64,000 bases of DNA from Methylocystis hirsuta (GTDB lineage: Bacteria; Pseudomonadota; Alphaproteobacteria; Rhizobiales; Beijerinckiaceae): assembly GCF_003722355.1 (NCBI RefSeq), contig NZ_QWDD01000001.1, positions 2,781,001 to 2,845,000 on the forward strand, written 5' to 3'. Made by a program: the position numbers and the translations under genes. This document shows, piece by piece, positions 19,954 to 26,293 of the stretch. The notes beneath the pieces were generated by a model. It had not been told where the DNA came from, did not search any database, and worked only from the letters and a program-made list of their open reading frames with translations. How positions within the stretch are numbered: the first letter of the stretch is position 1; the number at the start of each line of letters is the position of its first letter.

Positions 19954-20720
19954 ACGAGATCGTAGCCATTGATTGGCGCGGCGCCGCGCCGCTCGCCCGC
20001 GACGAATTCGAAGCCTCGATTCGCGCCGTCGGCGCCGAGCGCTATCACGACAAGCATGAGTTTCATAAGCTGCTGCACGGCGGCAAGCTCCAGAAGGAGC
20101 AGGTCGCCGCCTGGGCGCTGAACCGCTACTGCTACCAAGAGGCGGTGCCGCGCAAGGACGCCGCCTTTATGAGCCGCGTCCATGATCGCGAGCTGCGCCG
20201 CGAATGGATACATCGCATCCACGATCATGACGGACTCGGCGAAGAAGGCGGCGGCATCGAGCGCTGGCTCGTGCTGACGGACGCGCTCGGCTTCTCGCGC
20301 GAGTACGTGACCTCTCGGCGTGGCGCCCTGCCCGCGACGAAATTCGCCGTCGAAGCCTATGTGCGCTTTGTCGTCGAGCAGCCGCTCGTCGTTGCGGTCG
20401 CGTCTTCGCTGACCGAACTCTTCGCGCCGTCGATCCATCGCGAACGCATCGTCGGAATGCTGGAAAATTACGAATTCGTCGACGACCAGGTGATGGCCTA
20501 TTTCAAACGACGGCTGACGCAGGCGCCGCGCGATTCCGAGTTTGCGCTCGGCTATGTGCTGGACAACGCCAAGACCCGCGCCGAACAGGAAGCCTGCGTC
20601 GGCGCCGTGCGGTTCAAATGCGACGTCTTGTGGGCGCAGCTTGACGCATTACATCACGCCTACGTCACGCCCGGGCTGATCCCGCCCGGCGCATGGCGGC
20701 CAGGAGACGCCAATGTCTGA
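19950..20720 (+). CDS. pqqC: Pyrroloquinoline-quinone synthase PqqC
   Basis: This encodes 256 residues, all helical. It has YHDKHEFHKLLHGG, the motif ALNRYCYQEAVPRKDAAF and RIHDHDG, and VVEQPLVVAVASSLTELFAP, all conserved in PqqC. The enzyme carries out the final ring closure and oxidation. PqqD is not fused to its C-terminus, unlike the PqqCD fusion of Methylobacterium. It overlaps the next gene by eight bases. Confidence 0.95.
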   Translation: MNEIVAIDWRGAAPLARDEFEASIRAVGAERYHDKHEFHKLLHGGKLQKEQVAAWALNRYCYQEAVPRKDAAFMSRVHDRELRREWIHRIHDHDGLGEEGGGIERWLVLTDALGFSREYVTSRRGALPATKFAVEAYVRFVVEQPLVVAVASSLTELFAPSIHRERIVGMLENYEFVDDQVMAYFKRRLTQAPRDSEFALGYVLDNAKTRAEQEACVGAVRFKCDVLWAQLDALHHAYVTPGLIPPGAWRPGDANV

Positions 20721-22185
20721 GGCGCAGGCCGCGCGGTTCGTGATCGGCCCGGATTCGCGTCCGGCCTTCACGCGCTACGCGCGGCTGCATGAAGACCGCG
20801 CGCGGTCTCGAACGGTTATTCTGGCGCCCGAGCGCGCCTATGAACTCGATCCGATTGGGCTCATCGTGCTGCGCGCGATCGACGGCGCAACGCGCCTCGC
20901 CGATCTTTGCGCGCGGCTCGCGCAGCAATATTCCGCGCCGCTCGACGTTATCACGCGCGACGTCACGGCGCTGCTGCAAGGCCTCGCCGACAAGCGGCTG
21001 CTGCGCGACGGAACCGACGAATTTGCGGCGCCGCCGCCGTCCGCCTTCGCCGCGTCGATCGCGCCATTCGCGGGCGGACCCGCGGGGCTGCTCGCCGAGC
21101 TTACCCATCGCTGCCCGCTGCAATGTCCCTACTGCTCCAACCCGCTCGAACTCGAGCGCTCGAACGTGGAGCTCACCGCCGACGAGTGGGGCGCGACCTT
21201 CCGTCAGGCGGCGTCGATCGGCGCGCTGCAACTGCATCTTTCCGGCGGCGAACCGACTGTGCGCCGCGATCTTGAAGAGATACTCGCACACGCAGTCGAC
21301 GCGGGACTCTACACCAATCTCGTCACCTCCGCCGTTCTGCTGACGCGCGAGCGGATGCAGCGTCTCGCAAAGATCGGCCTCGATCATGTGCAAGTCTCTA
21401 TCCAGGACGTCGTTCCCAAGAGCGCCGACCGAATCTCGGGCTTTCAGGGCGGCGTCGCCAAGAAGCGCGACGTCGCGCGATGGACGCGCGAATTCGGCAT
21501 GGGGTTGACGATCAATGCGCCGATGCACCGGCAGAACATCGCGCATCTGCCGCAGATCATCGACTTCGCCGTCGAGGTCGATGCGCAGCGCATCGAGATC
21601 GCGCATATTCAATATTACGCCTGGGCGCAGATGAACCGCGCCGCGCTCATCCCGACGCGCGAAGCCTTCATGGAAACAGTCGGCATCGTGGACGAGGCGA
21701 AGAAGCGTCTCGCCGGCGTGCTCAATTTCGATTTCGTCATCCACGATCATTACGCGACGCGGCCGAAGGCCTGCACGGGCGGCTGGGGCCGATCAATCAT
21801 GGCGGTGACGCCATCCGGCAAGGCCCTGCCCTGCCACGCCGCGCAGACCCTGCCGGGAATGGCCTTCGACAATGTGCGCGAGAGGCCGCTCGGCGACATC
21901 TGGCGACATGGCGCTGCCTTCAACGCCTTTCGCGGCACGGACTGGATGAAGGAGCCCTGTCGTTCTTGCGAGCGCCGTGAAATCGATTTCGGCGGCTGCC
22001 GCTGTCAGGCGTTCGCGATCGCCGGCGACGCCGCGGCGACGGACCCCGCCTGCCATCTGTCGCCGGACCATGCGCGCTTCGCCGCTTACGCCGAAATCGA
22101 ATCGCACGTCCCACCGCCGGACTTCGTCTACCGCCGCTATGGCGGCGCCGCAGCGTCGACGGCGCGCGCCAAAGAGCCCGCGTAG
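20713..22185 (+). CDS. pqqDE: PqqD-PqqE fusion: peptide chaperone plus radical SAM enzyme
   Basis: This encodes 490 residues. Residues 1 to about 100 form a PqqD winged-helix domain (PAFTRYARLHED, then LDPIGLIVLRAIDGATRLADL). From about 115 is PqqE with the radical SAM cluster motif CPLQCPYCSNP, SGGEPTVRRDLEE, and a C-terminal SPASM-type region with GWGRSIMAVTPSGKALPCHAAQ and EPCRSCERREIDFGGCRCQAF. PqqD presents PqqA while PqqE links its Glu and Tyr. Fusion fixes the partner ratio. No pqqA is adjacent. Confidence 0.93.
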   Translation: MSEAQAARFVIGPDSRPAFTRYARLHEDRARSRTVILAPERAYELDPIGLIVLRAIDGATRLADLCARLAQQYSAPLDVITRDVTALLQGLADKRLLRDGTDEFAAPPPSAFAASIAPFAGGPAGLLAELTHRCPLQCPYCSNPLELERSNVELTADEWGATFRQAASIGALQLHLSGGEPTVRRDLEEILAHAVDAGLYTNLVTSAVLLTRERMQRLAKIGLDHVQVSIQDVVPKSADRISGFQGGVAKKRDVARWTREFGMGLTINAPMHRQNIAHLPQIIDFAVEVDAQRIEIAHIQYYAWAQMNRAALIPTREAFMETVGIVDEAKKRLAGVLNFDFVIHDHYATRPKACTGGWGRSIMAVTPSGKALPCHAAQTLPGMAFDNVRERPLGDIWRHGAAFNAFRGTDWMKEPCRSCERREIDFGGCRCQAFAIAGDAAATDPACHLSPDHARFAAYAEIESHVPPPDFVYRRYGGAAASTARAKEPA

Positions 22186-22278
22186 TTACCGCTGCGGCGC
22201 GCGCGGATCGTCGCGCGGGTCAAGATAGGTGATGTTCCACATGGCCGCGCCCACAAGAATTGCAGCAAGATTTCGCAT
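22186..22278 (-). CDS. Possible 30-residue membrane miniprotein
   Basis: This ATG frame of 31 codons has a hydrophobic N-terminal helix (LAAILVGAAMW) and a charged tail (DPRDDPRAPQR). A GAGG lies nine bases upstream. It abuts the pqqDE stop from the opposite strand. No family is recognised; the short length makes chance likely enough that this stays tentative. Confidence 0.35.
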   Translation of the reverse strand: MRNLAAILVGAAMWNITYLDPRDDPRAPQR

Positions 22279-22453
22279 AGCTTGGGCCTCCAAAGCGCCC
22301 CTCGCTTGAGATAGTGCGCCGAAGACACACAGACGCGAAGAATTCAAAAATTCGATTTCGGTAACAAACGAGCAACTTCCACAGGGCATATTGAGCCTTG
22401 TCTCGCGGAGTTAAGGATTTGTTTCGCATAAGTTGCGTAATGGAGCTTGTCGC

Positions 22454-22858
22454 ATGAAGTCGCGGGATACGCTTGTCCGTCTCAAACGGTTCCAGGCCGA
22501 GGAAAAACGTCGGCGTGTCATCCAATTGAATGCAATGATCGGCGAATTCACGCGCATGGCCAATGAGCTCGAGCGTGAAATCGGTCAGGAAGAGCGGCGC
22601 GCCAACATCGACGATCCCAATCATTTCGCTTATCCGACCTATGCGCGGGCGGCGCGCACGCGACGCGACAACATCGTTGCGTCGATCACGGAGCTGCGCG
22701 GCCAACTCGAAGAAGCCGAAGCGCAGTTCAAAGAGGCCAGCGAAGACTTCGCCAAGGCGCAAAACCAGGAAGCGCGGGATCGCGGGGCCGAGCGCATGGT
22801 TGATGTCGTCGCCGAGCGGCGCCACGCCGAAATGCCGGAAGTTTTGCGCAGGGCTTAA
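22454..22858 (+). CDS. fliJ: Flagellar export protein FliJ, Hyphomicrobiales type
   Basis: This encodes 134 residues, almost entirely coiled coil. The start MKSRDTLVRLKRFQAEEKRR and the central FAYPTYARAARTRRDNI match the short FliJ of rhizobia as I know it. FliJ is the central stalk of the flagellar type III export ATPase. No other flagellar gene is in the window, so the assignment rests on sequence alone. ATG at 22454 is preferred; the upstream ATG at 22433 lacks support. Confidence 0.75.
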   Translation: MKSRDTLVRLKRFQAEEKRRRVIQLNAMIGEFTRMANELEREIGQEERRANIDDPNHFAYPTYARAARTRRDNIVASITELRGQLEEAEAQFKEASEDFAKAQNQEARDRGAERMVDVVAERRHAEMPEVLRRA

Positions 22859-23433
22859 GGCTTAAACAGCCGCCAGCGCAGCCTGCCTCGCGGCGGGCGC
22901 GCCCAAACGCCAAACGTTCTTCGGCGAACGGCGCTGAACTCTTCGCCTCTGGCGAGAGCGTGTGCGAGTGATGCGACATCGAAGTCGAACGCTCGGAAAA
23001 AAAGCGCCGCGCCGGAACGCCCGGCATCGATGAAGGCCAATTCGAAACGCACGAGGTCGGCGACCCAGGGCGGCTCCAATTCGCACCTTGCGACACGCCT
23101 ATCGAGAAATGCAGTGAGCGCCGCAGCGTCCGAGCGATTTGTTGCATCTCGCGCAGCGCCGAGGATCGCCTGGCGGAAAAGCGCATCGAAACGATCGCCC
23201 AACGCGCGCGCCGTGAGCGGCAGCGCCCTGCGCGCATAAAGCGCGCGTTTGCCGATCAGGCTCTGCGCAAAGGCTTCGATTTCGCGACGGTCGATTCCGA
23301 CGAGGCGCTGCGTGTCATGCATGCTCAGCCCAAAGCGCGTCGCGACGGCGATCGGCGCTTCGAAGAATTCCCGCCGCAGATCATCGTCGGTGAACAGGCG
23401 CGCAAGCAGCGCCTGCGTCTGCGCTAACGCCAT
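22855..23433 (-). CDS. Partner protein of the DUF692 enzyme (SCO6045/MbnC-like role)
   Basis: This encodes 192 residues, mainly helical. TQALLARLFTDDDLRREFF at the N-terminus and FGLSMHDTQRLVGIDRREIE are seen, but there is no cysteine cluster or known catalytic motif. It overlaps the DUF692 gene by ten bases, and MNIO enzymes are usually encoded beside a helical partner that recognises the substrate peptide (MbnC, HvfC/BufC or SCO6045-like). I take it as that partner by position and fold class, not by a decisive motif. Confidence 0.6.
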   Translation of the reverse strand: MALAQTQALLARLFTDDDLRREFFEAPIAVATRFGLSMHDTQRLVGIDRREIEAFAQSLIGKRALYARRALPLTARALGDRFDALFRQAILGAARDATNRSDAAALTAFLDRRVARCELEPPWVADLVRFELAFIDAGRSGAALFFRAFDFDVASLAHALARGEEFSAVRRRTFGVWARPPRGRLRWRLFKP

Positions 23434-24266
23434 CGCCCGTTCTCCACGAGCGTTCGTCGCGCGCGCGCCACTTCATCGATGAGTTCGCCGAACGGCGGCA
23501 TTTTCTCGTCGCGCTCGAGAATGACCGCCTTGACCGGCGCACGGGCGACAACGCGATCATAGAGCCGCCAAACCGCATCGCTCGTCGCAGCGTCATGGCT
23601 GTCGATCAGCAGGCCGTCGCGCTGGCGTCCGCCGGCGTAGTGGATTTGCACCAGCCTGTCCCATGGCCAGCGCTCGAAGTCGCGTTCGAGATCGACGCCG
23701 AAATTCGTCGCATTCACATGCATGTTGGCGACGTCGCACAGCCAACCGCATCCGGTCGCTTCGAGCGTGCGCCACAAAAATTCAGCTTCGTCCATTTCGC
23801 CGCCTGGAATGCGCACCACGCAAGTGATGTTTTCCAAGATCAGCGGCGTCTTGATGCGCCTGCGCACAACTTCGACATTGCGCGCGACCACGTCGACGGC
23901 TTCCTGCGTATAGGGCAGAGACGCAAGATGGCCGATGCTGATTCCGCCGGCGCGCGTGAAGCAAAGATGTTCGCTCCACCAGGGCGGATCGATGCGTTCG
24001 ATCAGCGCGGCGATTTTATCGAGATAGCGTGAGTCGACGCCGTCTGCGCTTCCGATGGAGAGATCGAGACCATGCGCGACGAGCGGGAAATGCGCTCCTA
24101 AAAGCTCGAGTTCAGCGAGCTTTTCCTTTGATGCGTCAAGATAATGATCGGCGATGATCTCGATGAAATCGACCTCATCCCGTCGGGCGAAGAGATCGGC
24201 ACGAAACTGCGGACGATAGCCAAGTCCGGACCCGAGGGCCGGCGCGTCAATCGCGGACGCCACCAT
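23424..24266 (-). CDS. DUF692 multinuclear non-heme iron oxidative enzyme (MNIO)
   Basis: This encodes 280 residues, a TIM barrel of the MbnB/TglH/ChrH family. Metal-site segments can be read in order: VAHGLDLSIGS, then WWSEHLCFT, LENITCVV, WLCDVANMHVNATN, LVQIHYAGG, LLIDSHDAATSD and ILERDEKMPPF. The family uses two or three irons and oxygen to modify cysteine-containing peptides. ATG at 24266 is chosen because it gives the usual family start; it overlaps the upstream gene by 20 bases. Context suggests the TIGR04222 protein tail as the substrate. Confidence 0.88.
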   Translation of the reverse strand: MVASAIDAPALGSGLGYRPQFRADLFARRDEVDFIEIIADHYLDASKEKLAELELLGAHFPLVAHGLDLSIGSADGVDSRYLDKIAALIERIDPPWWSEHLCFTRAGGISIGHLASLPYTQEAVDVVARNVEVVRRRIKTPLILENITCVVRIPGGEMDEAEFLWRTLEATGCGWLCDVANMHVNATNFGVDLERDFERWPWDRLVQIHYAGGRQRDGLLIDSHDAATSDAVWRLYDRVVARAPVKAVILERDEKMPPFGELIDEVARARRTLVENGRWR

Positions 24267-25170
24267 CGCTCGCTCCGCCGTCGCCGCAACTGCCGCCGCA
24301 ACTTGTTCCGCAATCTGAGCCATCGCTTCCCGAGCCGCGACTGAAGGCTTCGGCGAACATCGCCTCCGTCGTGCCTTTGAGCGGCGCGAATCCATAAAGG
24401 CCGATGAGAAACAGCGCGGCGCCGTGGAACGCGCGCGCTTCGGGTCCAGGCGATCCGATGTGACCGACGGCCTCCTTCAGACGGCCGCCATAGGCAAGCC
24501 GCATCGCGTCAAGATAGGCGTGGCCGCGACGGCTGGCATGGGTTCTGGTCAGCACATAGGCAAGCGCGAAAAGCGACGCGACAGACGCAGCTGCGAGAAA
24601 GACTAGATAGGCGACATTCACGGCGCCCGCTGTCCATTCCACATAGATCTTGGCAAGCGCCAGGCCGACGATGATCAGCGTTCCGCCGATCTGCGCGCGC
24701 CGACGCCAGATCTTCACGGACTTGGGCTTGATCAGCTCTTCCGCGGCGAGCTTGGCGCGCAGCGGCGCGAGCTGCTCCAGCAGCCAGCGCCGCAAGCTCC
24801 GATCTTCGAACAGCGCATGCGCCTTCGGCTTCGCCTGCACGGCTTCGAGCAGGCGCGTCTCCATGGCGGTGAGTTCGCCCGGCTCCGGCTGCTTCTCTGT
24901 GGGAATCACGTGATCCTCCGCGGCGAGGACGACGAAGCCGCGCTGCGCAAGATCGTAGATCAGCGTTCGGATGACCTGATTGACGCCGCCCTGCAGGAAG
25001 GCGACCTCCATCGCGTCGGGGTTCTGCGGAACGGGCGGCGGCGGGCGGCGATCGGTGCGATCCGCGAGCCTAATGCAAAGGTAAGTGGCCGCCAGCACGA
25101 GGATGACGACGAGGCCGAAGACATTGAGAAATTCTGGCCCGGGAAGATTAAGGATCGCAATATTCTGCAC
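24247..25170 (-). CDS. TIGR04222-type membrane protein with Gly/Cys-rich tail
   Basis: This encodes 307 residues. An N-terminal helix (about 12-32) precedes a cytoplasmic domain beginning PDAMEVAFLQGGVNQVIRTL, which matches my recollection of TIGR04222; two further membrane helices lie at about 170-210. The C-terminus is a Gly/Ser/Asp-rich tail with three regularly spaced cysteines, CGTSCGGSCGDGG. It starts at GTG ten bases after ctaA and overlaps the DUF692 gene. A tail of this sort beside an MNIO enzyme is a candidate modification substrate. Confidence 0.75.
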   Translation of the reverse strand: MQNIAILNLPGPEFLNVFGLVVILVLAATYLCIRLADRTDRRPPPPVPQNPDAMEVAFLQGGVNQVIRTLIYDLAQRGFVVLAAEDHVIPTEKQPEPGELTAMETRLLEAVQAKPKAHALFEDRSLRRWLLEQLAPLRAKLAAEELIKPKSVKIWRRRAQIGGTLIIVGLALAKIYVEWTAGAVNVAYLVFLAAASVASLFALAYVLTRTHASRRGHAYLDAMRLAYGGRLKEAVGHIGSPGPEARAFHGAALFLIGLYGFAPLKGTTEAMFAEAFSRGSGSDGSDCGTSCGGSCGDGGASDGGVRD

Positions 25171-25180
25171 GCCAGCCGCC

Positions 25181-26293
25181 TCAGTTCGTGATCACGTCTT
25201 GCACAAGCCGTCGCGCCTGCAGCGTCGCGACCGCCAACACCGCCATGCCGATCGCCTGATGCGCGAGCGCCAGAGAGAGATGCGGCGCGCCGGCGAAAGG
25301 CGGTTCGACGAGCACCAACGTCGCAACGCCAAGCGCGATCTGCATGAGCACATGGCCGAACAGAATCGCGGCGCCGCGGCGCGCGCGTCCTTCCGCGTTC
25401 ATCCACGCGTCCAGAAGATGCCCGAGCGCCAGAGCGAAGATCAGATAGGCGATCATGCGGTGGAAGAATTGGACGGTGACAGGGTTGTCGACGAGATTGG
25501 TCCAGAAGGGCTCCAATCGCCACAAGACGTCGGCCGGAGGAATGAAGGCGCCGTCCATCAGCGGCCAAGTGTTGTTGACGAGGCCCGCCCGCAATCCAGC
25601 GACGAGGCCGCCGACGAAAATCTGCAGAAACACAAAAGCGAGGATCGTCAGCGCGACCGCCTTCAGCCGACCTGCGCCCTCGTGCACGAGAGACACGGCG
25701 CGCGGTCCGAGGCCGCCGGCCACCCATAAACATGCGGAGAAGATCAGCGCGGCGAGCAGCAAATGGATCGCGAGGCGCTCCTGCGCCACCTCGATGCGGT
25801 TGACGAGGCCGGATGCAACCATCCACCAGCCGACGCCGCCCTGGAGCGCCCCGAGCGCGAGAATGCCGACAAGCTTCGGCTTCGCCGAACGCGGCAGGCG
25901 GCCGGTCGCCCAAAACCATATGAGCGGGACGGCGAAAACCACGCCGATCAGGCGCCCGAGAAGACGATGCGCCCATTCCCAGGCGTAAATATATTTGAAC
26001 CCGGCGACATCCATGTCCGGGAACAGTTCCCTATACTGCGGAATCTGCTTGTATGCCTCGAACGCCTCCTGCCACTCTTGCTGGGACAGCGGCGGCAGCA
26101 CGCCGGTGACAGGCTTCCACTGCACGATCGATAGGCCCGATTCGGTTAACCGGGTCGCGCCGCCGACGATGACCATCAGAAAGACCAGCCCTGCGACGAG
26201 CCACAGCCAGTTGCGCACCGCCCGGGCGTTCGCCGCGGTCGCGTGGTGTCTGATCGCTGGGACCGGTTGGGGAAAGTGCAGCCAATCTTCCAT
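25181..26293 (-). CDS. ctaA: Heme A synthase (COX15/CtaA)
   Basis: This encodes 370 residues with eight membrane helices. Family motifs are GGATRLTESGLSIVQWKPV, EWAHRLLGRLIG, QGGVGWWMVASGL, the second-half histidine pairs in AIHLLLAALIFS and FFHRMIAYLIF, and LALAHQAIGMAVL. It oxidises the heme O methyl group to give heme A for cytochrome oxidase. ATG at 26293 starts the protein; the very long frame further upstream is an artefact. It heads the four-gene minus-strand run. Confidence 0.95.
   Translation of the reverse strand: MEDWLHFPQPVPAIRHHATAANARAVRNWLWLVAGLVFLMVIVGGATRLTESGLSIVQWKPVTGVLPPLSQQEWQEAFEAYKQIPQYRELFPDMDVAGFKYIYAWEWAHRLLGRLIGVVFAVPLIWFWATGRLPRSAKPKLVGILALGALQGGVGWWMVASGLVNRIEVAQERLAIHLLLAALIFSACLWVAGGLGPRAVSLVHEGAGRLKAVALTILAFVFLQIFVGGLVAGLRAGLVNNTWPLMDGAFIPPADVLWRLEPFWTNLVDNPVTVQFFHRMIAYLIFALALGHLLDAWMNAEGRARRGAAILFGHVLMQIALGVATLVLVEPPFAGAPHLSLALAHQAIGMAVLAVATLQARRLVQDVITN

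Follow-up and report, generated by a model that had tools for sequence, protein, structure and literature searches.

Gene organization of the locus

The DNA analysed here (the window) is a stretch of 64,000 nucleotides from Methylocystis hirsuta (contig NZ_QWDD01000001.1, positions 2,781,001 to 2,845,000), and all coordinates below refer to it. On its minus strand lie three overlapping genes that encode a TIGR04222 membrane protein with a cysteine-rich tail, an MNIO enzyme and a helical partner protein. Our analysis suggests that the tail is probably the substrate of the enzyme.

The TIGR04222 gene (24247..25170, minus strand) starts with GTG and encodes 307 residues, which score 81.2 bits against the NCBIfam cut-off of 43. 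The MNIO gene (DUF692; 23424..24266, minus strand) overlaps it by 20 nt and encodes 280 residues from an ATG at 24266 that lies inside the TIGR04222 gene; its product belongs to PF05114 (MbnB_TglH_ChrH) with 277.8 bits (cut-off 25; E 1e-82). The partner gene (22855..23433, minus strand; 192 residues) overlaps the MNIO gene by 10 nt, with its ATG inside the latter. The upstream neighbour is ctaA (COX15-CtaA; 25181..26293, minus strand; PF02628, E 6e-100), which ends 10 nt before the GTG, and a convergent fliJ-like gene (22433..22858, plus strand; TIGR02473, 28.7 bits, under the cut-off) follows beyond the partner. The four minus-strand genes, in the order ctaA, TIGR04222, MNIO and partner, form an apparent operon. 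The three-gene cassette, its position and its overlaps were correctly recognized in the preliminary description of this DNA. The closest named loci are those of Methylocystis sp. H62, M. silviterrae, M. suflitae and M. rosea, and the fliJ flank is conserved among relatives' loci.

The MNIO open reading frame (ORF) extends from 23424 to 24395 and is longer than the 280-residue product assumed. Since a Shine-Dalgarno-like GGAG, read from the sequence within the TIGR04222 coding sequence (24273..24276, minus strand), stands six bases ahead of the ATG at 24266, translation likely starts there and not at the beginning of the ORF.

The interval from ctaA to fliJ consists of these three genes with gaps of at most 10 nt, leaving no room for a separate small precursor gene in the operon, as had been noted before. 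Small ORFs with at least two Cys between 22000 and 27000 lie almost all inside or antisense to annotated genes, each ORF's conservation not being tested singly. Two such ORFs (within 22137-22389) fall in the pqqE-fliJ interval, which also holds a remnant of another gene.

A conserved cysteine motif in the TIGR04222 tail

The protein carries a disordered tail at residues 282-307 (24250..24327, minus strand), where the predicted local distance difference test (pLDDT) is below 50 for residues 282-300 and 302-307. The tail contains the Cys core CGTSCGGSCG (residues 287-296; 24283..24312, minus strand), which we propose as the modification site from its position and conservation. The protein had been described as ending in this motif; the motif is present, but it stands 11 residues before the C-terminus.

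A protein search returned 94 homologues, of which 91 were used after removing an apparent TIGR04222/MNIO fusion in a shifted frame (P0091) and two distant sequences (P0093, P0094). At least three Cys occur among the last 60 residues in 74 of the 91, and fewer in the other 17. The pattern CG-x2-C-x3-CG is found in 72 of the 74 tail-bearing homologues, and CxxxCxxxC in all 26 intact tails of the genus. The Cys motif is not a product of chance, and because the core precedes the MNIO start within the TIGR04222 gene, its conservation is no by-product of MNIO coding. The sequence CGGCGG is dispensable among the genus homologues (33/74).

Joint presence and absence within the genus

We surveyed 39 genomes of the genus, taking the window enzyme as phmmer query (E 1e-8) to find an MNIO at each locus and a profile to find the partner. 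TIGR04222 is present in 33 genomes. The MNIO adjoins it in 27 of these, and all 27 loci have a partner match, which is truncated by the contig end in G287 and, in G190, interrupted by a change of frame. The motif is intact at 26 of the 27 MNIO-linked loci, the remaining TIGR04222 frame (G234) being broken before the tail. In this locus (L012) and in P0091, TIGR04222 and MNIO appear to share one frame through a shift before the tail, either a gene break or an assembly error.

In five orthologues at the syntenic locus (G017, G057, G164, G303, G311), the protein ends before the tail, and MNIO and partner are absent. These loci retain the TIGR04222 body, with merR, ctaA, fliJ and pqq genes in place as far as the contig extends. 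G304 (66% complete) lacks MNIO and partner, and its tail is masked. Among the genus loci read, there is no tail without an MNIO and no MNIO without a tail. When six loci lacking both genes were searched by tblastn with MNIO and partner, no match was better than E 0.5. Genome-wide, PF05114 was not found in G057, G164, G303 or G311 (completeness 99, 98, 73 and 81%), while G017 carries a single copy at a distance of about 0.9 Mb; the partner was not found in G017, G057 and G164, the tail-less genomes searched for it. Of the six genomes without TIGR04222, the three read (G089, G215, G261) have no module gene near fliJ, and ctaA and fliJ are adjacent in G215; one, two and four PF05114 matches, respectively, occur elsewhere in them.

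Together, these results suggest that TIGR04222, MNIO and partner form a protein-modification cassette in which the tail is rebuilt by the MNIO, possibly into a metal site, and taken as a whole we regard this reading as probable. That the tail is the MNIO substrate was already put forward in the preliminary description. It gains from the joint presence and absence of tail, enzyme and partner at the genus locus, but the idea is not new: the available text of Antoine et al. (2025; PMC12452194) proposes the Cys-rich tails of TIGR04222 subsets as MNIO substrates, without experiment.

Predicted membrane topology

The TIGR04222 protein, modelled by AlphaFold2 with pLDDT 87.4, has a first transmembrane helix (TM1, residues ~11-36), a soluble domain (~53-143), TM2 (~150-180), TM3 (~187-208), C-terminal helices and the disordered tail. 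We analysed the charge bias around these helices in 34 sequences below 80% identity, drawn from 37 author-chosen ones, and scored hydrophobicity in them. Positive charge lies after TM1 in 33 of 34 sequences, before TM2 in 29 (reversed in two) and after TM3 in all 34. A fourth hydrophobic stretch shows no charge bias; its median score is 5.4, versus -1.3, 2.3 and -1.5 for TM1-3, and the modelled window protein has a helix of 9 residues there. By this rule of thumb and the model, the protein is predicted to be N-out, with three inner-membrane helices and with both the soluble domain and the tail on the cytoplasmic side.

According to the text available of Antoine et al. (PMC12452194), the tails of other TIGR04222 proteins are predicted to be periplasmic, and a tail of this kind would be modified before transfer across the membrane. 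In one MNIO-linked exception (L067) the fourth segment is more hydrophobic (score -0.2), which would favor a periplasmic tail. For the Methylocystis protein we consider this placement unlikely, as the charges listed above fall on the opposite side and the fourth segment is short and weak. Moreover, weakly related DUF2207 proteins have an extra N-terminal domain before the matching part and behind what, judged by eye, resembles a signal peptide, an arrangement that fits an N-out, C-in topology. Four DUF2207 proteins (L134, L136, L137, L140) have Cys-free, Gly/Ser-rich tails after the region weakly resembling TIGR04222, which raises the possibility that the Cys-rich tail is one form of a broader type.

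Phylogeny and distribution outside the genus

A tree of 57 author-chosen rows (loci and homologues), computed with the tail removed, requires three tail changes. A Cys tail is also missing from P0083/P0084 and P0087 (gene context unread), which the tree places outside the main tail-less clade. In two other genera, five genomes (G078, G161, G200; G027, G167) combine a Cys tail with MNIO and partner, which suggests that the three-gene module is the older state.

Only matches over the TIGR04222 cut-off were taken further in our wider surveys. Among 298 genomes of the family, 43 have a TIGR04222 match, 35 of them over the cut-off; 13 over-cut-off matches lie outside the genus, with an adjoining MNIO at five loci and none at eight. 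Among 385 genomes of the class, our own genome alone exceeds the cut-off. The phylum survey (398 genomes) yielded 14 matches over the cut-off, four already seen. At the ten new loci no MNIO was found by phmmer (E 1e-5), the contigs of L130, L131 and L133 ending directly after TIGR04222, where any MNIO downstream would escape notice; two of the tails are Cys-free (one cut by the contig end), seven have 2-5 Cys, and the L133 ORF was not found. Gly-rich tails with 2-5 Cys, mostly with a CGGCGG-like end, stand without an MNIO at L061-L065, L068, L075 and L124-L129. A universal rule linking tail and MNIO is rejected, as many distant TIGR04222 proteins have CGGCGG-type tails but no MNIO. The co-occurrence of TIGR04222 tails with DUF692 genes, which the preliminary description had offered as a check, holds within the genus and at five family loci outside it, but fails at the eight others.

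Several points weigh against the tail as MNIO substrate. The five tail-less cases whose context is known form a single clade (99/98); their joint absence therefore counts as one event, and because the genes overlap, a single deletion could have removed the tail by accident. At the eight MNIO-less family loci, all seven tails read have 3-4 Cys (the L069 ORF was not found), and four of these seven genomes lack any PF05114, which implies that such tails act without an MNIO. CG[ST]SCxxSCG is characteristic of the genus: beyond it, all five tails linked to an MNIO (L057-L059, L067, L077) lack the full CG-x2-C-x3-CG; two of them have CGSSC (L058, L059) and all five have CGGCGG. The MNIO stays below every NCBIfam subgroup cut-off, so that its chemistry can be assigned only tentatively, and we found no experiments on the cassette in the literature.

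These points would suit a plain metal-binding or structural Gly/Cys tail, with the MNIO acting on an unlinked precursor and one deletion having taken the 3' end of TIGR04222 together with the two genes. The genome does hold other apparent Cys-containing precursors, in three more MNIO clusters, in which the enzyme gene is preceded by an apparent precursor and followed by a partner. L001 has a 76-residue Cys-rich ORF with a Sec-like start, a BufB over the cut-off and a sub-cut-off HvfC match as partner. L002 has a DUF2282 precursor over the cut-off that matches BufA2 weakly, a BufB over the cut-off, a sub-cut-off HvfC partner and, by eye, a DoxX-like ORF. L004 is the methanobactin cluster, with MbnB and MbnC over their cut-offs and an ORF ending with CASTC, which we take to be mbnA from its position. 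However, the search of the genome revealed a single DUF2282 precursor, which adjoins its own MNIO, and each of the other MNIOs likewise comes with an apparent precursor. In the window cassette the gene order is the same, with TIGR04222 in the precursor slot. In addition, the tail-less proteins keep body and flanks, tail, MNIO and partner occur together in three genera, and the motif is conserved although MNIO coding starts downstream of it. Thus, we judge it unlikely that the tail is no substrate.

Partner protein and enzyme chemistry

The modelled partner has a fold nearest TglI, matching across almost its whole length. It has no DUF2063 Pfam match, shows the NGO1945/TglI fold, and its gene lies downstream of the MNIO gene; on this model the partner is TglI-like and of PME-type 2.

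The NCBIfam models that the MNIO matches best are, in order, BufB (239.4 bits; cut-off 310), HvfB (186; 360) and ApyH (116; 400), followed by MbnB (52.5; 325) and ChrH (34; 600). Its solved relatives by sequence are 3bww, TglH (second, E 2e-25) and MbnB. An alignment of ten MNIOs (the window enzyme, two of the BufB class, MbnB and six relatives) has 13 invariant His, Asp, Glu or Asn positions, including H65, H100, E145, N146, D178, H209, D222, H224 and E251, several of which are presumably iron ligands.

TglHI-like chemistry, that is, carbon excision from Cys in place of heterocycle formation, would agree with the partner fold and with the rank of TglH among the solved matches, but it is improbable given the NCBIfam order and, as far as the available text of PMC9016710 describes, the action of TglHI on a Cys appended to the peptide C-terminus, no gene for an appending enzyme being found between ctaA and fliJ, the interval searched.

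ctaA and the pqqE-fliJ interval

The position of the module behind ctaA had raised the idea of a heme or respiratory link, which we reject as functional evidence. ctaA stays beside the tail-less TIGR04222 gene in L023, L024, L026 and L066 (the L025 contig ends before ctaA) and stands beside fliJ with no module at all in L101, and in five genomes of two other genera (L057-L059, L067, L077) the module occurs without ctaA nearby. We therefore regard ctaA as a neighbour by position and not as part of the module. A copper link is possible by analogy.

On the other flank, 20713-22185 is a single 490-residue ORF with PqqD and radical SAM/SPASM domains, a PqqD-PqqE fusion. A 30-codon ORF (22186-22278, minus strand) aligns with both ends of a longer pqqE-fliJ stretch of relatives, the middle being gone here; both ends are seen in L006 and L011, while several other loci show the far end alone.

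Discussion

We propose the following model for the cassette. The TIGR04222 protein would span the inner membrane with three helices, its soluble domain and its disordered Cys-Gly-Ser tail both facing the cytoplasm. The cytosolic MNIO, tethered to its substrate by the TglI-like partner, would oxidise at least one Cys of the genus motif. As the enzyme scores nearest to bufferin maturases, the product might be a Cys-derived heterocycle of the 5-thiooxazole kind. The altered tail may then bind a metal at the membrane's inner face. In the available text of PMC13097082, MNIOs dependent on a PME-type 1 partner are suggested to make 5-thiooxazole broadly, and such peptides bind copper; the window partner is not of PME-type 1, so this chemistry does not follow. 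One clade retains the TIGR04222 body in the absence of tail and enzyme, so the body has an independent role and the modified tail would be an add-on.

The cassette is best read as the Methylocystis member of a class already proposed. It shares with the TIGR04222-MNIO clusters in the available text of PMC12452194 the position of TIGR04222 before the MNIO, the C-terminal Cys/Ser/Gly tail, the PME-type 2 partner and the lack of a signal-peptide precursor. Those clusters are mostly from Actinomycetota, whereas here the host is Methylocystis, the predicted topology is reversed and tail, enzyme and partner are jointly absent at the same locus in one clade. The pearlin system TglHI likewise has an MNIO-family enzyme and a partner of matching fold, but the putative substrate here is a 307-residue membrane protein. 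With the bufferin and captophorin systems (BufB, HvfB) the cassette shares the nearest NCBIfam models and the gene order, but its enzyme is under the BufB equivalog and HvfB cut-offs, its partner lacks the DUF2063 signature, and the membrane protein takes the place of a short Sec-type precursor. The methanobactin system (MbnABC) shares the enzyme superfamily, the genome and the C-x3-C spacing of core CASTC and tail CGTSC, with the MbnB score well under its cut-off. In the literature pairing Methylocystis with MNIO terms, no paper on the cassette was among the matches listed, judged by titles and the beginnings of abstracts.

By analogy with MNIO-made metal-binding heterocycles and the shared spacing, it is tempting to imagine a methanobactin-like copper site on the cytoplasmic face; we hold this doubtful, though possible. 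If true, it would provide methanotrophs with a membrane-fixed copper buffer or sensor, and the MNIO would be acting on a protein instead of a peptide.

The new elements here are that tail, enzyme and partner are present or absent together, that the modelled partner has a TglI-like fold, that the predicted topology is the opposite one and that the link to ctaA is positional. A cytoplasmic tail would solve the access problem for a cytosolic enzyme, and the Methylocystis clade that lacks both tail and enzyme offers a natural control. MNIO enzymes have been characterised on peptides; a full-size membrane-protein substrate would widen their scope, and the modified membrane protein would represent a fixed, genetically tractable metal site.
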